From Bacteroidales bacterium (lineage in GTDB: Bacteria > Bacteroidota > Bacteroidia > Bacteroidales > UBA932), in assembly GCA_017458265.1 (NCBI GenBank), contig JAFTFV010000010.1:1-55023 (forward strand): a DNA stretch of 55,023 nt, in the 5' to 3' direction. The position numbers were made by a program, and so were the translations under genes. The notes beneath the pieces are model-generated. The model was not told the DNA's origin. It ran no database searches and saw nothing but the letters and a program-made list of their open reading frames with translations. This document shows, one piece after another, positions 44,832 through 55,023 of the stretch. Positions within the stretch are counted from its first letter, which is position 1, and each line of letters starts with the position of its first letter.

Positions 44832-45995
44832 TTAAACATCAAACAACGTGGGTTCATAGAACCCGTCAAGTTCTTTGTCAATATTGAGGTTAGATTTGTT
44901 GAAGAGGTCTTCAAGAGGTGTCGTATCCGTGAGCGAGATTCCAAGAACCTGGAGCGTGTTGTAGACCGACATCTGAAGCTTCAGTTTGTGGTGAACAACG
45001 GCTACCAGACAGTATGAGATGATCGCTGTGTAGATCTGAATGCGGACTGCGTTTTCGGAGTCTCCCCAGAACTTCTTGATCTTCAGATGCTGCTTCACCC
45101 ATTTGAAGAACAGCTCCACGGACCAACGGTTCTTGTAAAGGAGCGCTACTTCTAAAGCGGTGATATCCATTGCATTAGTCAAGAAAACGAAGTATCTGTC
45201 CTGCTCCTCATCGTAGTACTCAACACGCCGGAGTTGCGCCGGATAGTCGTTGTGACTCTTGTACGTAGTAAGCTCGATGATGGAGTCAGACAATACGTTT
45301 TGGGGCATCCTTCTCTTCCATTTGACCGCCTTGTACTGGAGGTTCTTCTTGGCTCTCACCACGAAGAAAGCACCTGCACAATGGAACCTGTAGAGCTGCG
45401 CAAAGAAGTTGTACGCACGGTCAAAGATGTAGTAGGAACCGGACTCAACCGGTATCTCCTTCATCGCCTGGGAGTCATGGACGGACGCAGTCGTTATATG
45501 GAAAAACGCCGGCACCTGAGCCTCGACATCGTAGAGAGTATGGATTTTTATCCCGCCTTTCTTCTTGCGGAACTTCGCCCAGCAGAAGACTGCGAGGCAA
45601 AGTTCGACGGTTGTGGAATCGAAGGCATAGACCGTTCCACCGAGGTTGAATATCTTCGTATCGTTCAGATTACGAGCGAGTTCCATCATGTAGAAAGCAT
45701 ACTCTTCGAAGATGCGGCAGTCTCGGTTCTGGTTCGCTTTTGCCAAGTTGCTACGCGTCACGGAGTCCCCGAAACCGAGGAACTTAGCCTTGCCGCTATG
45801 GGCCTCCACCGCCACGATCAAATCGCGTAAACTTTCACGTCGGGAGAGTTGACCGAACATAAGGACTTTGAGCTGATTCCAACATGAGAAGACCTTTATG
45901 TAGCTGTCACCCTGATACTTAGCAACGATGCGATTAAACTTGCTCCTGTTAAGGTGCGAAGCTAATTGAGCAAAAACGAACGACTGATTATGCAT
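44832..45995 (-). CDS. IS4-family transposase
   Basis: The 387-residue DDE transposase shows the three acidic positions: YAFDSTTVEL, YYIFDRAYNFF and the YREK-like YKNRWSVELFFKWVKQHL with the catalytic Glu. The N-terminus MHNQSFVFAQLASHLNR is typical of this IS4 subgroup; the ATG 17 codons upstream (46046) was not chosen because the -7 box TAACTTTG (46021-46014) lies between the two. The gene appears intact, so the element may be active. It reads toward folE. Confidence 0.93.
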   Translation of the reverse strand: MHNQSFVFAQLASHLNRSKFNRIVAKYQGDSYIKVFSCWNQLKVLMFGQLSRRESLRDLIVAVEAHSGKAKFLGFGDSVTRSNLAKANQNRDCRIFEEYAFYMMELARNLNDTKIFNLGGTVYAFDSTTVELCLAVFCWAKFRKKKGGIKIHTLYDVEAQVPAFFHITTASVHDSQAMKEIPVESGSYYIFDRAYNFFAQLYRFHCAGAFFVVRAKKNLQYKAVKWKRRMPQNVLSDSIIELTTYKSHNDYPAQLRRVEYYDEEQDRYFVFLTNAMDITALEVALLYKNRWSVELFFKWVKQHLKIKKFWGDSENAVRIQIYTAIISYCLVAVVHHKLKLQMSVYNTLQVLGISLTDTTPLEDLFNKSNLNIDKELDGFYEPTLFDV

Positions 45996-46013
45996 AACTA
46001 TCTGATTTACAGA

Positions 46014-46021
46014 CAAAGTTA
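46014..46021 (-). promoter_or_regulatory. -7 box of the IS4-family transposase gene
   Basis: TAACTTTG on the minus strand, 18 bases before the chosen start; a TTTG lies 22 bases upstream of it. Transcripts from here would continue into folE. Confidence 0.55.
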
Positions 46022-46165
46022 CGATTGAAAACCGTTCGCCCCTCAAACACCTCCTAACTATCTAACTATCAATATTTTCAAAGACCTATATATAAATTTT
46101 TAGTGGACACTAATGATATGCCATGGCCTGTAATTTGTTGCAAATAATTTCAAAGTTTTGGGATG

Positions 46166-46681: not shown

Positions 46682-48028
46682 ATGGGTTCAGTAAAACCAA
46701 GAATTCCCTCAGGAAAATTCGTCGTCCTGAACCGGGTCAACACAAAAGGCGAAACCGTTATTCATCTCCGGTACTTCTGGGGAACCTATCTTAAACGTTC
46801 TACGGGAATTGCAATCCCACCTTCGGCATGGGATGAAGCCCGCTGCTGCGTAAAACCATCCTACCCTGATTCGGCAAGAATCAACGCCCAGCTGCAAAAT
46901 CTCAAATGCGAGATTGACAACAAACTTCTTGCTTATGAGGGCGAGATGAACAAAACTGTGCTTAACTTCATTCTGAACGGCGGAGATCCTGTGAACGAGG
47001 GCGATTTGCCGGACGAATCTCCCACCCAGGTGGTCAACAAAAAAACCAACTTCGTGGAGTATGCCCACCGGGTCAACGATTTGAACTATGGCAAGAAGGA
47101 GTACGGATATTCGCTCTGGTACAACAAGCAAAAGTTGATTGAGCAGTTTGAAACATTCCTTGTTCACTGGCGCAAAACGCCCAAGTTCGCACTGAAAGAC
47201 CTCAGGCAGGATGTTTTTGACGAATATGTCCAGTACCGTTTTACCGTGCGTAAGAACAACAACAAAGAGGCCATCAACAAGGCGCTCGTCCCTCTCTATG
47301 TGGCTATAAAGGCCGCCATTACAAACGGTATCCTCGATCAAGGAACATACGGTCCCGTCGCCGAGAACTATCTGGATACAAGAGAAACAGAGTATCGCCC
47401 GGATATGGAGGAAACGGTATTAGAAAAAGTGCGTTTTCTTACCCCGGAGCAGATTGTTCAGCTCAAGGATTACTACGAGAAGTGCAAGAATCCTCGTTCC
47501 AAGGAGATTCTGGACATGTGGTTTTTTGCCTATTATGCTTGCGGGCTTCGTCTGTCAGACATTCTGACCCTTGAATGGAAACATATTGACTGGGATGCGA
47601 AGGTAATCAAGAAAGTCCAGTTCAAAACCAAGCGGCTTCCTGACGTCCTACCACCTCTCGGGAAATCTGCTATAGAGATATTGGAACGCTGGAAGGAAAA
47701 AGGGAGGAATGACAAGTTTGTCTTTGACCTCCTTCCGGAGGACTACGACCTCACGGATCAAAAAAGGCTGTTCATGGACCGCAATTCCAAGGACAAGACT
47801 TTCAATACGTCCCTGAATGTGGCCAGGATGACACTTCGTTTCGATTTCCCGCTCACCATGCACGTTGCCAGACATAGTTTCGCCGTTATGTGCATCAACA
47901 ATGGAATGAATATCTTCCTACTCAGCAAGCTACTGGGACATTCCACGATTGCATCTACGCAGCGGACCTATGCGCAGTTCCTGAAAGAAACTGTGGAGTC
48001 CGAGACTAAATTTATCCGCGACCTCTAG
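46682..48028 (+). CDS. int: Tyrosine recombinase (integrase) of the mobilizable element
   Basis: The 448-residue site-specific recombinase has an N-terminal arm-binding domain, a SAM-like core-binding domain (about 120-220) and the catalytic domain. Catalytic residues are visible: Arg in ACGLRLSDILTLEW near 290, HVARHSFAVM near 397 (His-x-x-Arg), GHSTIASTQRTYAQF with the second His and the Tyr nucleophile near 432. It resembles the Bacteroides Tn4555/NBU-type integrases. The end overlaps the convergent HTH gene by 17 bases. Confidence 0.94.
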   Translation: MGSVKPRIPSGKFVVLNRVNTKGETVIHLRYFWGTYLKRSTGIAIPPSAWDEARCCVKPSYPDSARINAQLQNLKCEIDNKLLAYEGEMNKTVLNFILNGGDPVNEGDLPDESPTQVVNKKTNFVEYAHRVNDLNYGKKEYGYSLWYNKQKLIEQFETFLVHWRKTPKFALKDLRQDVFDEYVQYRFTVRKNNNKEAINKALVPLYVAIKAAITNGILDQGTYGPVAENYLDTRETEYRPDMEETVLEKVRFLTPEQIVQLKDYYEKCKNPRSKEILDMWFFAYYACGLRLSDILTLEWKHIDWDAKVIKKVQFKTKRLPDVLPPLGKSAIEILERWKEKGRNDKFVFDLLPEDYDLTDQKRLFMDRNSKDKTFNTSLNVARMTLRFDFPLTMHVARHSFAVMCINNGMNIFLLSKLLGHSTIASTQRTYAQFLKETVESETKFIRDL

Positions 48029-48305
48029 GTTTAATGGTGATTGCCGTAGCTTTATGATGGATGCCGAGGAGAAATGCCTCGACATCCTCTTTGCTATAGA
48101 AATAGGTGTCTCCCACCTGTGAATAACCCAGCAGGCCGGCGTCACGCCATTTCTTGATGGTGGCGGTGGACGTGTCCAGCAGTTTCATCAGCTCGGCGTT
48201 GGTATATACGGGCTTGTGGGCGCTCAGTCCCATCTTCAAATCTTTCACTTCGTCGGCCAGCCTCTCCAGCTGGCGGGCAATATCGTTTCGCTCACTCGGT
48301 GTCAT
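48012..48305 (-). CDS. HTH protein, MerR/excisionase-like
   Basis: The 97-residue protein has an N-terminal coiled segment (RQLERLADEVKDLKMGLSA) and a winged helix-turn-helix of the HTH_17 type (YTNAELMKLLDTSTATIKKW, then GLLGYSQVGDTYFYSKEDVE). Such proteins act as excisionases or regulators of excision in Bacteroidota elements. It overlaps the primase stop by ATGA and is translated with it. Its 3' end is antisense to the last 17 bases of int, which could let the two transcripts interfere. Confidence 0.85.
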   Translation of the reverse strand: MTPSERNDIARQLERLADEVKDLKMGLSAHKPVYTNAELMKLLDTSTATIKKWRDAGLLGYSQVGDTYFYSKEDVEAFLLGIHHKATAITIKPRGRG

Positions 48306-49213
48306 ATGCTTGGTGTAAGTTTCATTTCAGCGGTATAGCCCCGGGAGTCCTGGAGCATTTCATTGAGGTCCTTGTACTTGCCGTACAAGTCGGACATATC
48401 GGTAACCCTGCCCGGGAAAGCCCTCTCCAGTGCAGACTGACACTTCTGACCGGCCTCGTCGTTGTCCAGGAAGCCGGTTATTATGTCGTGTTTGCCGATA
48501 TAGTCCATAGCTTTCCTGAGGTTGTTAACGGAATTCAGCACTACCACATCACAGGAGGGCCTGGTGCTGCCCTGCATCACCTGCCAGGAAAGAAAATCCC
48601 AGAAACCTTCGAAGACGACAACGCTTTTCGCGCCCGGTTTCTGACTGAACGTCCCCTCATTACTTATAGTGGTAACATCGGCCTTGTTGGTGGACTTATA
48701 GCCGCTGGGTGCAGACATAGCCCAGGCTCCGGCATTGTTCGGAATTCCCACCAGCGTGAAGTTCAAGCCCTTCTGCGGATTATAGACGATAATCTCCTTG
48801 AGGTGTTTTCGGGCCAGCTCCAGTGGAATCTTCCGGGATGAGAGATAGTTTTTCAGATAATCGCTCCTGATATCACGGACCCTTCTGATTTCGCATTTGC
48901 TGCCCGTGGCTGTGGCAGCATTTGGCCGATAGCTGGTCTGCTGGGCAGGGACAGCCGACGGGTCAAGGGCCTTGACATAGTTCTCCGCCTCTCGGCAGCC
49001 GCAGTGCTTTACCATCATGATCAGCTTGATGATGCTCCCTCCGTCCCCGGTGCCGTGGTCATACCAGAGGTTCTTGCTCCTATCGATATGGAAGGAGGCT
49101 TCGGATTCTTCCCGTAGCGGCGAGAACCACATATCCCGCCCCGGTCCCTTGCGGCACCCCAAGGCTTCCATTACCTTATCAATGGGATAGTTGTATATCT
49201 CCTTCTGGAACAT
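48302..49213 (-). CDS. Toprim-domain primase of the mobilizable element
   Basis: The 303-residue protein has an N-terminal DnaG-like zinc-ribbon remnant (WFSPLREESEASFHIDRSKN, then DHGTGDGGSIIKLIM) in which the usual zinc cysteines are absent, and a C-terminal Toprim domain (VVVFEGFWDFLSW with the catalytic Glu near 205, FLDNDEAGQK near 250). It likely primes the complementary strand after transfer or replicates the excised circle. It has its own promoter with a palindromic operator and is followed by the HTH gene. Confidence 0.88.
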   Translation of the reverse strand: MFQKEIYNYPIDKVMEALGCRKGPGRDMWFSPLREESEASFHIDRSKNLWYDHGTGDGGSIIKLIMMVKHCGCREAENYVKALDPSAVPAQQTSYRPNAATATGSKCEIRRVRDIRSDYLKNYLSSRKIPLELARKHLKEIIVYNPQKGLNFTLVGIPNNAGAWAMSAPSGYKSTNKADVTTISNEGTFSQKPGAKSVVVFEGFWDFLSWQVMQGSTRPSCDVVVLNSVNNLRKAMDYIGKHDIITGFLDNDEAGQKCQSALERAFPGRVTDMSDLYGKYKDLNEMLQDSRGYTAEMKLTPSI

Positions 49214-49395: not shown

Positions 49396-49710
49396 ATGGC
49401 CAAGAAAGTTGAAACGGAAGCCGCTCCCGTGCAGGAGAAAGAAGTCAAGAAGCGCCCCAATTATCAGCGCAAGATGCCCATCCAGTATGGGCCCAAGCGC
49501 GGCAAGCGCCTGGCGCCGGTACTGATGTATCTCTTTCAGGAAGGCATTTCCATCGCTAATTTGGCCGACCGTCTGGGCCTGTCCCGTCAGGGCATAAGCA
49601 CACGTTTCGTGCGTGACAACTGCTCCATGAAGGATATGGAAGAGATGGCCGCAGCAGCCGGTTACAAGTTCGTCTGGAGTTGGGAAAAGGTCGAGAAGGA
49701 CGAAGACTAA
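49396..49710 (+). CDS. Small basic HTH-type DNA-binding-like protein
   Basis: The 104-residue protein has a Lys/Arg-rich N-terminal tail (KKRPNYQRKMPIQYGPKRGK) and a C-terminal region, FQEGISIANLADRLGLSRQG, that reads as a helix-turn-helix, like a Cro/C1-type repressor. I do not recognise a named family. It is read divergently from the primase, has its own -7 box and converges on the MobC-type gene with a 4-base overlap. It is a candidate regulator of the adjacent palindromic operator. Confidence 0.7.
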   Translation: MAKKVETEAAPVQEKEVKKRPNYQRKMPIQYGPKRGKRLAPVLMYLFQEGISIANLADRLGLSRQGISTRFVRDNCSMKDMEEMAAAAGYKFVWSWEKVEKDED

Positions 49711-51596
49711 GCCGGGTTGTTCTGCTCCTTGAAGAGCAGGTTCAAGATGTCCAGGCGGATCTTCCGGTAGTTCTTCTCCACTTCCATCTCCATCTGTTCC
49801 GGCGTCATCCGGAGGATTTGTGGAATCTGCTCATTATGCTTGGGTTTCCCGCATGCCTTTACCTCCCCGCAGAAGATTTTCGGATTGACCTTCTGGTTGA
49901 AAGTATCGGCTACATAGCCGCAAAAGGAGCCCTGTGACAGGGCTTCAATCTTATTCGGTGGCAGCACGTCCCTCAATTGGTATGAGTACGTGACATGGTC
50001 ACTGGATGCGCCCTCCTGGTAGGAGCGCATTTCTCTTTCCACCTTGCCGAACGACTTACTCAGCATCTCGGCCGTCTTTCCTTTCACGGCTCCTGAAAAC
50101 ACGTTACCTACCGTGTTGAAGATTACTTCGGACTCCTTCTGGTCATAGTCTTTGACCAGCTGAGACTTGTCCTGAGCGCCGATGACTACGGCCACCTTGT
50201 TCTCGCGCGCGGTATTGATAAGGTTGTCCAGCCCCTTCAGATAGATGGTGGGCAGTTCGTCGATGAGAACGGCCGAATGGCGTTTCCCGGGCACATTGAT
50301 AATCTTGAAAAGCTGGCTCATCAGCATTGCCAGCGTAGTTCCATACACGCTCTGGCGCCTGGGATTGTTGCCCACACAGATGATTTTTGGCTGGTCCGGG
50401 TTGTTGATATCCAGCGAGAAATCATCCCCAGAAAGCGTCCAGTAGAGGGTTTTCGAGGCAAATCGGTTCAGCGGAACGCGGGCCGAAGCTATCTGGCCCT
50501 GCAGTTGTTCGAACGCCTGGTCCTTGATGGCATCGGCAAAGGTGTTGCGCTTGACTTCCAGCTCGTCGAACTTCTTCAGAATCTCAAATACAGAGCGGTA
50601 ATCCTGCCCCATGAGTTCAATCAGATGCGGGAAGGTGCAGTAGCGGCCACCGTCGTAAATCTTCAGGAACCAGATGAGAAGGTCCACATAGCACCGGGCC
50701 GACAGCGAGAAGAAATCGTCCCCCTTAGCATTCTCCCGGTTGGCGTTTTTCAGTATGACTTCTGCAATCTCCGTGGCATCCACGGGGTCGGTCAGATATC
50801 TGGGATGGATGGGATTGAAGCGGTGCGAGTGCAACGGGTCATCGAAATTGACGATATAGAGCTTGGGCTTGATGTCATAGCAGCCGTAGTTGTCCAGCAG
50901 CTCGTTCATCACCAGACGGGTCAGGCTGGGATACTTGTAGTCGTAGACAAACATCGCGTAGCCCTTCTGCATCATATGCCGGATGAAGGCGGCGTAGATA
51001 CTGGCCGTCTTACCGGAACCGGGGGTGCCGATGACCATACATCCGCGCTGCGGAGCCACGCAATTGATATAGCCGTTATGGAGTTTTCCCTCATACTGGT
51101 AGGTCATAGGAATATTGACACTGTACTCGTTCTCAATTAGCTCCCTGCATTGTTCGAACGTGTCCCAATACTCGGGAAGATGGGCATCGAAACTCCGCAC
51201 CATCCTCCCCAGCAGGATGGCTCCCACCAGATACATCACATAACCGGCCAGCGTCAGGAACACATAGAGCCAGCCGTTGCCGCAGAGCTGAGCACCAAAG
51301 AACAGCAGCAGCCCGGCCAGAAGCGGCAGCAGAATCTCCAGCCAGGATGACTGCTTGGAACTGCCGCTCCGCACTACCACCGACAACGTGGTAAAAAACA
51401 GACAGACGAACTTTACTGACAGCTGAGACCGGAATACCCCTGACCGGTGCACATCCAGCATCAGTGAATCCGTCATTCCGGAACGCAGTCCCACCGCTGT
51501 CCAGAAGGGATACGCATAGTAGTAAAGTATCAGCGCCAGAATCCCGCCCGACAGCAGCAGGAACATCGAATACATCGGTTTTGTCTTTGCATCCAT
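49707..51596 (-). CDS. mobC: MobC-type coupling protein (VirD4/TraG family ATPase)
   Basis: The 629-residue protein links the relaxosome to a transfer channel. Several N-terminal membrane segments lie within residues 8-130 (for example MFLLLSGGILALILYYYAYP and WLYVFLTLAGYVMYLVGAIL). Walker A is MVIGTPGSGKTAS near 188-200 and Walker B is SAVLIDELPTIY near 439-450, with the TraM-recognition NTARENKVAVVIGAQDKSQL after it. It resembles the Bacteroides MobC proteins. The element has no secretion-channel genes, so it must dock onto a helper type IV system. It starts one base after the relaxase stop. Confidence 0.9.
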   Translation of the reverse strand: MDAKTKPMYSMFLLLSGGILALILYYYAYPFWTAVGLRSGMTDSLMLDVHRSGVFRSQLSVKFVCLFFTTLSVVVRSGSSKQSSWLEILLPLLAGLLLFFGAQLCGNGWLYVFLTLAGYVMYLVGAILLGRMVRSFDAHLPEYWDTFEQCRELIENEYSVNIPMTYQYEGKLHNGYINCVAPQRGCMVIGTPGSGKTASIYAAFIRHMMQKGYAMFVYDYKYPSLTRLVMNELLDNYGCYDIKPKLYIVNFDDPLHSHRFNPIHPRYLTDPVDATEIAEVILKNANRENAKGDDFFSLSARCYVDLLIWFLKIYDGGRYCTFPHLIELMGQDYRSVFEILKKFDELEVKRNTFADAIKDQAFEQLQGQIASARVPLNRFASKTLYWTLSGDDFSLDINNPDQPKIICVGNNPRRQSVYGTTLAMLMSQLFKIINVPGKRHSAVLIDELPTIYLKGLDNLINTARENKVAVVIGAQDKSQLVKDYDQKESEVIFNTVGNVFSGAVKGKTAEMLSKSFGKVEREMRSYQEGASSDHVTYSYQLRDVLPPNKIEALSQGSFCGYVADTFNQKVNPKIFCGEVKACGKPKHNEQIPQILRMTPEQMEMEVEKNYRKIRLDILNLLFKEQNNPA

Positions 51597-51597
51597 A

Positions 51598-52836
51598 TCA
51601 ATTGGGTCCCCTTCGCCCCTTTTTCATTATTGCCTCATCCTCACCCCGGCGGCTCCTTTCCGCACCCAGCGCCGCCACGAAGAGGTCGGCCGCCTCCTCT
51701 GCAGCGCTTTTTTCTTTTTCAGCGTTTTCCTCTTTCTTTCCTTCCTCCGGAGGCCATTTCTCTGCCCTGGCCTTCTCGAACTCCGCAGCACTGATGCCGT
51801 GAAGGTCGCTTACCTTGAATACGCACCGTGTCTGGTGGTCGATAAGCGTCACTCCAAAGATTTTCCCGTCCTTAGACTTGGAAAGTTTCAGACCGATATT
51901 GAACTTTCGGAGGATTCTTCTGGTGTGCAGTTCCGACGTTCCGTGCTCCAATGCCACCCGGGCCAGATTCGCCGCCCGTTTGCCCTCCTTCGTGCGCAGC
52001 TCTTTCCTACAATCCATCGCACGCTGGCGCACATCCTCCAGTGAAGCGGCATTCAGGTCCTTGCCGATAATGGGCGCCGTGCATTTGTGCTGCGTCTTCG
52101 GATCGATGCCGGTAAAGGTCAGATAGATTTTCCGCCCAACCTTGGCGTGTCCCACTTCCACGCCGAACTCGCGCATCAGCATCTTGAACTGCTCCGTGGT
52201 GATGAAGTAGTATTTCATCGCCTGGGCCACCAGTTCCTCCATCTGCTTCATGTACTCGCCCCGGACAGGGTCGAAACGCTGATAGTCCACTTTCTTGGGA
52301 CCGTCATCTTTCTCCTTGGCTTCACCCATGTCCTTGGTCTCTTCCGGCTTAGCCCCTTCCGCTTTCGTCTCCTTCTCAGGTTTGTCCGCCAGGCCGACGG
52401 TAAATCCATACTTCTGCTCCAGTTCCTTCATGATTTCATTGCATCGCCGCCCTTCCTGCCGTTCAGGTATCTTCCTTCCGTCCTTATCCACTCGCACTGA
52501 TACCAGATGATAATGGATCCGGCCAATGTCATCGTGCCTGTATATTATATATGGTTGGTCGCCGTATCCCAGGCGCTCCATTAGTTCCTTTGTGAAAGCG
52601 ATAACCTTTTCCTGCGTCATATTGTCTGCCTTCGCGGGATTGATGGAAGCGTGAAAGGACATCTTTTCACAGCGACGGCTGCCGCGCTCATACTCGGAGA
52701 AGGTTTCCATCGGCTTCTTCGGGTCTGCAATCTTAGAGGAGAAGACCGCCTCGGCTTTACCCTCGGCGACCTTCCTCTCATTGTACTGCACGGCCGAGCT
52801 GCAACTTGGTGCCGGCGGTTTGATTTTGACTACCAT
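51598..52836 (-). CDS. mobB: MobB-type relaxase
   Basis: The 412-residue relaxase would nick oriT and pilot the strand. The metal-binding three-His motif is visible in YRHDDIGRIHYHLVSVRVD near residues 98-116 (H-x6-H-x-H). The N-terminal KMSFHASINPAKADNMT segment matches Bacteroides MobB-type relaxases. The middle and C-terminal parts are highly charged (Lys/Glu-rich near 155-185 and 365-400). It is transcribed with mobA and ssb upstream and the mobC-type gene downstream. Confidence 0.88.
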   Translation of the reverse strand: MVVKIKPPAPSCSSAVQYNERKVAEGKAEAVFSSKIADPKKPMETFSEYERGSRRCEKMSFHASINPAKADNMTQEKVIAFTKELMERLGYGDQPYIIYRHDDIGRIHYHLVSVRVDKDGRKIPERQEGRRCNEIMKELEQKYGFTVGLADKPEKETKAEGAKPEETKDMGEAKEKDDGPKKVDYQRFDPVRGEYMKQMEELVAQAMKYYFITTEQFKMLMREFGVEVGHAKVGRKIYLTFTGIDPKTQHKCTAPIIGKDLNAASLEDVRQRAMDCRKELRTKEGKRAANLARVALEHGTSELHTRRILRKFNIGLKLSKSKDGKIFGVTLIDHQTRCVFKVSDLHGISAAEFEKARAEKWPPEEGKKEENAEKEKSAAEEAADLFVAALGAERSRRGEDEAIMKKGRRGPN

Positions 52837-52874: not shown

Positions 52875-53180
52875 TCAGTCCTTGCCCGCTGGAGCCAGAT
52901 CAATGTTCGACACCCACACGTCCAGGTTCACAAAGGTCTTGTCATCCTTTACGTTGGTTGACACTTTGAGTCTTCCGCTCACGGACACATAACGCCCTTT
53001 CTTGAGGTAGTCTGCCAGGCCGGTTTTGGCCATACGACAGTTGTAGTACGTGGGCTTTTCATCGCTGCCAGCCTTGGCATCGTTCACAGCCACGTTGAAG
53101 CGGACGAACTCGGCATCGTCCTTCCCTTTGACAATCTCGCAATCTGCTGCCAGATTACCGGTAATGAAAATGATTTGCAT
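52875..53180 (-). CDS. ssb: Small single-stranded DNA-binding protein
   Basis: The 101-residue protein has an SSB OB-fold: IIFITGNLAADCEIV, FVRFNVAVNDA, YYNCRMAKTGLADYLKKGRYVSVSGRL and LDVWVSNIDL. It lacks the acidic C-terminal tail of cellular SSB, a common trait of element-encoded versions. Set between mobA and mobB, it probably coats the transferred strand or serves the element primase. Confidence 0.9.
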   Translation of the reverse strand: MQIIFITGNLAADCEIVKGKDDAEFVRFNVAVNDAKAGSDEKPTYYNCRMAKTGLADYLKKGRYVSVSGRLKVSTNVKDDKTFVNLDVWVSNIDLAPAGKD

Positions 53181-53205: not shown

Positions 53206-53595
53206 TTATTGAACGTCCTCCTCTACGAGTCGGACCTTTTCTAGAATCTCATTCATCATGGCCTTCATATCCGCCAGATCCGTACGGACCATCCCCGCCG
53301 TCACGACAGGCCGGCCGCTCTTGTCACGGAGTTTTGCCAGCGTGTTCAGCGCCTTTACCTTTTGATTATAGTTGTTGCCGATACGGACAATCTCCGCCTT
53401 CAGAAGGGCCAGTTGTTTGGTGAAGTTCGCTTCCGTGCGGTGGAAATTCCGCCGCTGGATCCGTTTGACCAGAAGGGTCTCCCTGATATACTTGGACTTG
53501 TTGCGATACCCCTCCAGGAGCATCTGGGCATTGAGTTTCTCGAACTCGTTGTCCGAGAGCCTCAGTGAAATGACGTGTTTTCTTACCTTACTCAC
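53206..53595 (-). CDS. mobA: MobA-type ribbon-helix-helix mobilization protein
   Basis: The 129-residue relaxosome accessory protein has an N-terminal ribbon-helix-helix (RKHVISLRLSDNEFEKLNAQ, then GYRNKSKYIRETLL) and the mobilization motif IVRIGNNYNQKVKALNTLAK near 71-90. It probably binds oriT and recruits the relaxase. The start is a GTG at 53595, preceded by a strong AGAGGAG ribosome-binding site about seven bases upstream. It is the first gene of the leftward mob operon, directly beside the candidate oriT. Confidence 0.87.
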   Translation of the reverse strand: MSKVRKHVISLRLSDNEFEKLNAQMLLEGYRNKSKYIRETLLVKRIQRRNFHRTEANFTKQLALLKAEIVRIGNNYNQKVKALNTLAKLRDKSGRPVVTAGMVRTDLADMKAMMNEILEKVRLVEEDVQ

Positions 53596-53778
53596 AGTTC
53601 TATCTCCTCTAACACTTTATGGGCGCAGCCCAAAGCGAGCGACTCCGGAGCGAGCAATGCCCGCCGCAGGCGCACGAGATGGGACCGGGGACCGGGCCTC
53701 GCGTTCGGATGTAATACGAACGCCCATCTCGCAGTTTGCCCCTAAGGTCAAACGGTTTCACCCCTTTGGTCTGCGTTG
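53596..53778. other. Candidate origin of transfer (oriT), palindrome-rich, within the mob operon leader
   Basis: CGAGATGG (53675-53682) pairs with CCATCTCG (53724-53731). Nested against its right arm is the hairpin GCGTTCG (53701-53707) with CGAACGC (53717-53723). Direct repeats of GACCGGG lie between, and short palindromes (CTCCGGAG, GGGCGCAGCCC) lie toward mobA. Position beside mobA and the GC-rich structure suggest oriT, by analogy with Bacteroides mobilizable elements. No nick-site consensus was identified. Together with 53779-53986 this accounts for the 391 bases without a gene. Confidence 0.55.
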
Positions 53779-53811: not shown

Positions 53812-53841
53812 ATTATTGTTTACGATATGCAAAATTATAGT

Positions 53842-53849
53842 TACATTTG
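53842..53849 (+). promoter_or_regulatory. -7 box of the RHH-like gene
   Basis: TACATTTG matches TAnnTTTG. It sits just before the 8-bp repeat array, so the array would occupy the whole leader of the transcript. Confidence 0.55.
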
Positions 53850-53864
53850 CGCGGAATTACAAAT

Positions 53865-53984
53865 GCGTAAATCTACAAAAGCGTAATTGAGTAATCCTGT
53901 ATTTGCGTAAGTGAGCAAATGAGCAAAAGCACAAATGAGCATTTGAGTAATTGAGTAAATGCGTAAACGAGTAAACGAATAAAA
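53865..53984 (+). repeat. Array of fifteen 8-bp repeats in exact register, consensus GAGTAAAT
   Basis: Cut every 8 bases, the segment yields GCGTAAAT, CTACAAAA, GCGTAATT, GAGTAATC, CTGTATTT, GCGTAAGT, GAGCAAAT, GAGCAAAA, GCACAAAT, GAGCATTT, GAGTAATT, GAGTAAAT, GCGTAAAC, GAGTAAAC, GAATAAAA. Position 5 is A in all fifteen, position 1 is G in thirteen and position 6 is A in thirteen. There is no indel over 120 bases. TTACAAAT and GCGCGGAA extend the register upstream. It ends two bases before the start codon at 53987. Confidence 0.92.
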
Positions 53985-53986
53985 CC

Positions 53987-54280
53987 ATGACACAACTGGA
54001 CGATTTCAAGAGAGTGCTGGGACTGGACGAGAATTTCCAGGAAGAGACAGTGGCACCCCAGCCCAAGAAGGAACAAGCGGTGAAAAAGGAAAAGCAGGAT
54101 GCCACCCGTCGGACGGTTTCCATCCCCGGTGACCTGCATACCCGGATTTGCCTGCTGGGGCTATGGATGAACAACGCAGGTATCCAGGACAATCCAAAAA
54201 TGTACGAGATTATCGATTCCTTGTTGGAAAGCTATCTTGAGCGTTATCCGGATGCTGCCAAGTTCGTAAAGAAAGCGTAG
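53987..54280 (+). CDS. Small ribbon-helix-helix-like protein (DUF3408-like) of the mobilizable element
   Basis: The 97-residue protein has a variable, charged N-terminal half (residues 1-42, Gln/Lys/Glu-rich) and a C-terminal segment RRTVSIPGDLHTRICLLGLW then MYEIIDSLLESYLERYPD. This reads as a beta-strand followed by two helices, a ribbon-helix-helix pattern like that of DUF3408/TraB proteins in Bacteroides elements. Its gene is preceded directly by the 8-bp repeat array, and RHH dimers are known to tile short tandem repeats, so it may bind its own leader. There is no ribosome-binding site, as the array runs up to the ATG. No ParA-type ATPase is adjacent. It is probably the last gene of the element. 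Confidence 0.68.
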   Translation: MTQLDDFKRVLGLDENFQEETVAPQPKKEQAVKKEKQDATRRTVSIPGDLHTRICLLGLWMNNAGIQDNPKMYEIIDSLLESYLERYPDAAKFVKKA

Positions 54281-54315
54281 GGAAACCGCGGTCCGGTTTG
54301 AGCATGTCGGGGAAA

Positions 54316-54939
54316 ATGACTAAATTTGAGGTCATGTTCGACGGACTGCTAAAATATGACCTGGGGGCTGGTGTGGAAGCTTTTTCCACACAGCGGGATG
54401 CCGTCCTTCCCTATGAAGTGACGCAGGGCCATCAGGTCCACGGCAGCCGCGTCGCCATTATCAAAAGGTCTGGCATGACGCGGGAAGAGTTGGAGGGTTA
54501 CGATGCATTTATCACCAAACTTCCCGGCGTTGCCATCGGAGTCCGCACGGCCGATTGCGTACCGATACTGCTTTACGACCCGGTGAAAAGGGTTATCGCC
54601 GCCGTCCATGCAGGCTGGAAAGGAACCGTCCTGCACATCGCTCAAGGAACTATCGCTGCGATGGCGCAAGTCTTCAAGTGCAACCCGGCCGACACGAAAG
54701 CGGTTATCGGTCCCGGCATCGGTCCGGACAGTTTCCAGGTGGGCGAAGAAGTGGCCACGCAGTTCAAGGAAACAGGATTCCCGATGGATGACATTTGGTC
54801 ATTCCGTGGCGCCGGTGACGGGACCCCCATTGTTTTAGCCGGTAAAAACCGAGCATTTTTTCATTTTATTTTCAACATCCGGCTCAATGGGGCATTCTGC
54901 CCCAGCCGCCGTGGCTTACCCCTGAGAAGTTTTTCATAG
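54316..54939 (+). pseudogene. pgeF: Peptidoglycan editing factor PgeF (YfiH), 3' end replaced by IS3-family DNA
   Basis: PgeF is a laccase-fold enzyme that removes misincorporated residues from peptidoglycan precursors. Conserved metal ligands are present: QGHQVHGSRV, VRTADCVPILLYD and AAVHAGWKGTVLHIAQG, followed by VIGPGIGPDSFQVGEEV. After SFRGAGDG the sequence no longer resembles the family, and the remaining 38 or so codons to the stop at 54939 are IS-derived. The C-terminal quarter, with the final HIDL-type and CTY-type motifs, is lost, so the protein is probably inactive. The ATG at 54316 follows a GGGGA; an in-frame ATG at 54304 is an alternative. Its native promoter may have been displaced by the mobilizable element. 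Confidence 0.85.
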
Positions 54940-55023
54940 AGTTTGGCTGGCTTACGCCACCTTTCTCTCGTATTCTTCTCGATACTCGAGCGGGGATTTA
55001 TACCCGAGCCTATAGATCAACCA
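54831..55023 (-). mobile_element. End of an IS3-family insertion sequence (partial, runs off the window)
   Basis: The minus strand carries the C-terminus of an IS3-type transposase, and homology of pgeF stops near 54825-54835. A TG dinucleotide at 54831 is a plausible IS terminus, but the other end and any target duplication lie outside the window, so the exact limit is inferred. Confidence 0.65.
54952..55023 (-). CDS. IS3-family transposase, C-terminal fragment
   Basis: Read from the right edge, 23 codons give WLIYRLGYKSPLEYREEYER then KVA and a TAA stop. The LGYKSPLEY core matches the integrase-domain C-terminus of IS3-family OrfB proteins (LGYxTPxEY). The rest of the gene lies beyond the window. 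It is too short for subgroup assignment. Confidence 0.75.
   Translation of the reverse strand, partial: WLIYRLGYKSPLEYREEYERKVA

Follow-up and report, generated by a model that had tools for sequence, protein, structure and literature searches.

A register-bound row of 8-bp repeats before a gene for a ribbon-helix-helix-like protein: a candidate operator or centromere-like array beside the oriT-like site of a putative mobilizable element

The window analysed here is the whole stretch of 55,023 nucleotides (positions 1 to 55,023, forward strand, of contig JAFTFV010000010.1, assembly GCA_017458265.1; genome G000 in our numbering) from a Bacteroidales bacterium of the GTDB lineage UBA932. Near its right end, at one side of a putative integrative mobilizable element (IME), a gene for a small ribbon-helix-helix-like (RHH-like) protein is directly preceded by a row of 8-bp repeats, itself preceded by a promoter box:

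53842..53849, plus strand: -7-type promoter box TACATTTG, after which the array fills the inferred transcribed leader
53857..53984, plus strand: repeat array of sixteen degenerate 8-bp units with a consensus of about GNGTAAAT, proposed to be a binding array, operator/centromere-like
53987..54280, plus strand: gene for the 97-residue RHH-like protein (N-terminal MxQLDxFRxxL motif, variable linker, C-terminal RHH-like part)

The box is assigned by its motif, which we take to be of the -7 type. When 53857-53984 is cut into 8-mers in a single register, unit position 5 is A in 16/16 and position 4 C or T in 16/16, while position 6 is A in 14/16 and position 1 is G in 13/16; a gap of 2 bp (CC) separates the end of the array from the ATG at 53987. 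Recutting the sequence in this way confirms the coordinates, the 8-bp register, the invariant A at position 5 and the 2-bp gap given by an initial annotation made from the sequence alone; its count of fifteen perfect units needs correction, as one register takes sixteen and the sequence 5' of them is more degenerate. Against 500 dinucleotide shuffles, period 8 reaches z = 9.2 in the 120 bp 5' of the ATG and period 16 reaches z = 6.9, the next-best period, 10, scoring 0.6. Tandem Repeats Finder at period 8 reports only 53907-53983 (9.6 copies): because the units are degenerate, it catches only the better-preserved part of the array.

The arrangement recurs before homologous genes. Among 21 leaders (the window, locus L005 and 19 from genomes of the window's genus), 18 show clear arrays with an 8-bp pitch (10 to 33 units each), one is marginal (genome G710), one has a 17-bp spacing (G676) and one does not rise above the null (G505); the prediction that an array in 8-bp register would precede the same gene in related elements, even where the units differ, thus holds in 18 of 21 leaders. 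In most of them the array starts shortly after the -7-type box and stops at or near the start codon. A unit-fitting model scored above the best of 20 mononucleotide shuffles in 20/21 leaders and above the best of 20 dinucleotide shuffles, run with equal iterations, again in 20/21; the model penalises steps other than 8, which partly predetermines the spacings that it counts, and it is therefore the periodograms that provide independent support. In a first set of 10 intact homologues, period 8 or 16 was best in 9, the remaining one being G676 (period 17, in the 120 bp before the gene); the best period of G505 in a 200-bp window is 10. Left out of the leader counts were weak or broken-frame matches (L002-L004, L031, G646), a 47-residue fragment in G659 (period 8 at z 2.4 in a 200-bp window) and a homologue in G687 with neither an ATG nor an array. 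Weak matches aside, all finds of the family come from the window's genus or from the named record L005 (RUG11937, presumably of rumen origin): protein searches gave no match in plasmids or viral contigs for the window protein and none in plasmids or phages for the G505 homologue, and the family profile had no match in viral contigs.

Loci collected by the neighbouring MobA gene instead of the RHH-like gene give a similar picture. In 29 MobA loci other than the window's own (three further MobA matches were left out), the RHH-like gene lies within 1.5 kb in 15, and period 8 or 16 is on top in 13 of these, with L043 (from G676; period 17) and L051 (from G710; period 20) as exceptions. Ten loci, with MobA identities of at most 34%, lack the RHH-like gene; two are cut by contig ends and two have cargo adjoining mobA.

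Simple repeats precede other genes in the order too (for example L107 in G017), and the arrays might accordingly be regarded as generic low-complexity repeats of the lineage without function. We find this hardly credible. In 244,057 bp (the window and L017-L027, loci picked for holding an RHH-like gene or a match to one), a strong period 8, that is at least 50% self-match over 88 bp, occurs in seven stretches, and all seven lie directly 5' of an RHH-like gene; other periods from 5 to 24 yield 52 regions in the same DNA, some of them these arrays again at multiples of 8 and many located in other places. The controls point the same way: 176 regions upstream of open reading frames of at least 200 residues show a period-8 z-score (z8) of at least 2.4 in only 2 cases and of at least 3 in none, and in a second control of 93 upstream regions, those that reach 2.4 are all ParA or DUF3408 starts (see below). 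Finally, degenerate as they are, the units hold their register, and the repeat word varies along with the protein. The word itself is a poor marker: a pattern of 18 fixed bases drawn from the window's word matched 42 viral-contig stretches, none of whose printed reading frames resembles the RHH-like gene by eye, and among 99 genomes of the order it matched G000 and two others, in which it never stands before an RHH-like gene. Its reversed control matched in four genomes, far more often in one, and the pattern is therefore not specific. Two viral contigs (L064 at 707-807 and L086 at 266-366) carry near-perfect AGAGTAAA repeats that end at the starts of other reading frames, unrelated by eye.

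The sequence of the encoded protein weakly suggests an RHH protein. The window protein itself has no Pfam or NCBIfam match; in the family's N-terminal motif, Q3, F7 and L11 are invariant. The best matches of the family profile in the PDB are omega (1irq, E 0.065), E73 (4aai, E 0.37), which we take to be an RHH protein, and omega again (2bnw, E 0.33), those ranked 4 to 7 not being named as RHH; a profile from the first ten sequences found only E73 (E 0.51). One of the 21 family members matches Pfam ParG (PF09274, E 0.13) and one DUF3408 (PF11888, E 0.0083), the window protein neither. Against 12 DUF3408 proteins, hhalign scores the RHH-like part of the family at 26.5 (E 5.6e-4, probability 30, 44 columns), where 20 column shuffles reach 12.7 at most; this suggests kinship with DUF3408. 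A DUF3408 profile had no match in the PDB. The RHH-like label of the initial annotation thus gains from the omega, E73 and DUF3408 profile matches, weak as those in the PDB are.

Between elements the repeat word changes and the 8-bp pitch is retained. Over 20 leaders (G676 left out), word similarity follows identity in the RHH-like part of the protein (Mantel r 0.62, 0/2000 permutations as high), as might be expected if each protein bound its own array. In L005, a close relative with 84% protein identity to the window protein, the 250-bp flank is 95% identical to that of the window, the gene 81% and the array 68%, the latter still in register; for G814/G798, the array is 90% identical versus 99% for the flank. 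Corresponding values are 95 versus 96 for G865/G782, 97 versus 94 for G865/G816 and 97 versus 95 for G824/G895. Alignment gaps inside arrays (three, of 8, 16 and 56 bp) occur in 2/6 close pairs, with none in the other 4. The commonest shared feature is an R-Y-A core, top of 144 patterns over 13 words, although it was picked after viewing the window, itself among the 13, and fits the words of G776/G814 and G710 poorly.

That the array acts as RNA, a repeated 5' leader controlling translation, had also been suggested, and its coincidence with the inferred leader in most loci would suit such a role. Six leaders or parts of leaders were folded, with z-scores of -0.71, 1.58, -1.06, -0.43, -2.39 and -1.80; one (part of L024) was more stable than all but 2/200 shuffles, but no common structure was seen, the words differ strongly between elements and each of these leaders precedes a gene for an RHH-like protein. 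We consequently do not favour this suggestion and consider an RNA role very improbable.

The element that carries the array is laid out as follows:

46682..48028, plus strand: tyrosine integrase of the element (family matches)
48012..48305, minus strand: HTH_17/MerR, excisionase-like protein (family matches)
48302..49213, minus strand: Toprim/primase-like protein (family matches)
49396..49710, plus strand: helix-turn-helix-like protein of the element (weak matches only, below cut-off)
49707..51596, minus strand: MobC-type coupling protein of type IV secretion (family matches)
51598..52836, minus strand: MobB-type relaxase (PF03432; family matches)
52875..53180, minus strand: single-strand-binding protein (family match)
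53206..53595, minus strand: MobA-type relaxosome accessory protein, MobC_2/NikA-like (family matches)
53701..53723, plus strand: hairpin GCGTTCG...CGAACGC, resembling an origin of transfer (oriT)
53725..53732, plus strand: nic-like CATCTCGC, directly 3' of the hairpin
54303..54319, plus strand: junction with a chromosomal pgeF-like gene, the likely integration site

The RHH-like gene stands at one side of the element, with the genes from integrase to MobA on its left and the pgeF-like gene on its right; the homologue in G782 likewise has a pgeF-like neighbour, as does, judged by eye, that in G816. Integrase, relaxase, coupling protein and oriT-like site are all present, and from this gene content the element looks like an IME. 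No mating-pore genes were recognised among ten element proteins scanned, no search aimed at such genes having been made, and no second copy of the pgeF-side core lies within the window.

The link to oriT made by the initial annotation is strengthened by a nic-like CATCT(C/T)GC found in 21/21 leaders, 111-188 bp before the -7 box, with an exact hairpin (at least 5 bp) right before it in 17/21. The likeness of CATCTCGC and of CATCT(C/T)GC to MOBP nic sites is our own assumption; if the site is indeed of the MOBP type, array and gene would be on the leading part of the DNA passed to the recipient. In G644, about 5.8 kb separate mobA from the RHH-like gene, and the sole hairpin-plus-nic match of the locus stays beside the array. 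In the same locus (L020, 3888-9388), about 5.5 kb lie between mobA and the oriT-like site, the block of oriT, array and gene being intact.

On another view, array and protein are accessories of the relaxosome that would fold the oriT region or mark it for transfer, much as with StbA of R388 or ParR of NAH7. StbA is reported to act on direct repeats beside oriT, and stability of the plasmid does not require its ParA-like partner StbB (PMC3098194); the likeness lies in the arrangement of a DNA-binding protein with repeats beside oriT, and the StbA repeats are 9-bp units spaced by two. ParR of NAH7, for its part, is reported to bind oriT and to aid transfer. Given that the nic-like site accompanies every leader, this is a serious possibility, if one that we regard with reserve, a MobA-type accessory protein being already among the products of the element. 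A far more remote idea, to which the primase-like gene and the single-strand-binding protein might lead, is that the repeats are iterons from which the excised circle would replicate: none of the ten proteins scanned was recognised as a replication initiator, and in related loci the array goes with the RHH-like gene.

A scan for the ParA motif [KR]GGx[GA]K[ST] in frames of at least 100 residues, which would miss divergent motifs such as that of StbB, found a single case in the window, L005 and L017-L061, namely in L052; this locus lacks the RHH-like gene family, so that no ParA motif stands beside the gene in any fetched locus holding it. In L052, a more distant MobA locus, a ParA-type gene comes after that of a protein judged by eye to be RHH-like, and no clear 8-bp array was seen. 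In G000, a query with a ParA of integrative and conjugative elements (ICE) found one weak place (E 1.7e-4), where there is a strong AAA_31 match too; ICE-type ParA-like genes (E <1e-13) occur elsewhere in the genome in 3/8 genomes searched (G782, G505, G676), the window's own not among them.

Elsewhere in the order, 8-bp arrays, though weaker ones, are frequent at ParA/DUF3408 operons and in some cases occupy the corresponding position. DUF3408 is present in 5/80 genomes of the order; 12 of the 16 matches were counted as the start of an operon or gene (L125 and L115 lie within the operons of L122 and L118, and L114 and L126 have a TGA in frame), near duplicates being L112/L123 and L111/L119. 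At ParA-DUF3408 or DUF3408 starts, z8 is at least 2.4, in at least one window each, in 8/12: in 6/8 starts with a ParA motif nearby and in 2/4 with none in the fetched flank (L111, L119, L113, L120). Period 4 scores above period 8 in L121; upstream of DUF3408 in L113, a 9-bp period is seen (z 3.3-3.7). Across L111-L133, 14 of 93 regions upstream of open reading frames reach z8 of at least 2.4, all of them ParA or DUF3408 starts (8 distinct starts, as the loci overlap). In L127, L128 and L132, MobA-MobB are divergent from the ParA/DUF3408 operon and the 8-bp periodic leader lies in the gap, which reproduces the order MobB-MobA, gap, periodic leader, operon; in L133 the relaxase is likewise divergent, without an array. 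The differences are that ParA is encoded there, that the arrays are weaker and that no TAnnTTTG box stands at the array start in L127, L128, L129 or L132.

Two published systems deserve comparison. In ParG/parH of TP228 (ParF-ParG), an ACTC box and a 4-bp spacer give an 8-bp pitch. ParG is reported to repress its own operon, and related ParG proteins, as in pMET1, can have unrelated repeats (PMC2262945), much as the words differ between elements here. It differs in having a ParF-like ATPase partner, absent beside the gene here by motif scan, in that only one homologue of 21 matches Pfam ParG, and in that the array described here lies downstream of a -7-type box, beside an oriT-like site, in an integrase-bearing element. 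In omega/parS of pSM19035, the best PDB match of our family, an RHH dimer is reported to sit on each short non-palindromic repeat, 7-10 repeats in a row over promoters, the whole acting as a centromere (PMC9499535); its units are of 7 bp and not 8, and it has a ParA partner (delta) for which the motif scan found no counterpart here. The statement of the initial annotation that no described system has exactly this form was thus too strong, both being close analogues.

Our preferred reading, to which we give a probability of roughly 0.6, is that the array is an RHH operator/centromere-like array, resembling parH of ParG or parS of omega, for the protein encoded downstream, without a ParA of its own, in a mobilizable element. 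By analogy with omega and ParG, dimers of the RHH-like protein would occupy the row, one to each 8-bp unit; by filling it co-operatively they would shut off the promoter of their own gene, and the filled row would form a nucleoprotein patch beside oriT, centromere-like or anchoring, that would help to keep or handle the excised, transferred circle. The likely origin would be a ParA plus RHH partition cassette, such as some related conjugation loci still have in the corresponding place.

A simpler alternative is that the array is an operator for autorepression and nothing else, the protein sensing its own level with no part in stability or transfer. The extent of the array in most leaders, from just after the -7-type box to the start codon, is what a roadblock operator would show, and both the reported ParG autorepression and the reported overlap of omega sites with promoters would fit. 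Conversely, the 18 clear arrays, with 10 to 33 units each, are larger than a simple operator requires, and in G644 the module stays with the oriT-like site though parted from mobA, a single case that hints at an oriT-linked role. We thus hold this alternative to be plausible, though not the better bet.

Unlikely, in our view, is a third variant, in which array and adaptor would be an orphan centromere that relies on a borrowed ParA, supplied by the host or by a conjugative element resident in it, for partition or for delivery to the mating pore. The MxQLDxFRxxL motif, which by eye only resembles the N-terminus of ParA-linked DUF3408 proteins, would then be a retained ParA-docking motif, and frequent word change would stop co-resident elements from competing for each other's protein. 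A related strategy is that of SGI1, an integrative mobilizable element that is reported to have centromere-like sites and to use the ParABS of its helper IncC (PMC10954446); the difference is that SGI1 mimics the parS of its helper, whereas each element here has its own binding protein and its own word.

Several observations weigh against the operator/centromere-like reading. Without a motor there is no guarantee of partition as usually understood, and the PDB profile matches are weak (best E 0.065). The G505 leader fails the unit fit against both kinds of shuffle, G710 barely passes (27 versus 26 and 25) and G676 passes with irregular spacing, its homologue (L025, 9850-10020) having a 17-bp and not an 8-bp period 5' of the gene; the partly built-in spacing of the unit fit counts here as well. 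The Mantel r drops to 0.23 over the 181 pairs below 70% identity, much of the signal thus coming from near relatives, and the array diverges faster than its flanks in two pairs (window/L005 and G814/G798) and clearly not in three others. The nic-like site has no exact hairpin in G767b, G676, G824 and G895. Lastly, four of the 12 DUF3408 starts have no 8-bp signal (L113, with 9 bp, L117, L118 and L120), L118 among them although its larger locus L133 has a divergent MobB.

RHH-bound rows of short repeats and ParG relatives with unrelated repeats are already known; new to us is a form that lacks the motor, occurs in mobilizable elements with an integrase, is tied to oriT, takes up the inferred leader and uses many words at one pitch, and in the open-licence literature we found no paper on such arrays before DUF3408 or IME genes. 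One pitch with many word turnovers is a natural data set on how RHH specificity changes, and it suggests that mobilizable integrated elements carry motor-less, partition-derived modules beside oriT.

Two minor observations concern the surroundings of the element. To its right (54298-55023), the pgeF-like frame runs to about 54838 and is followed by unrelated sequence, so that pgeF seems to be cut near this point, perhaps by another insertion. Just to its left (44832-46046) lies a frame that by eye resembles an insertion sequence transposase.
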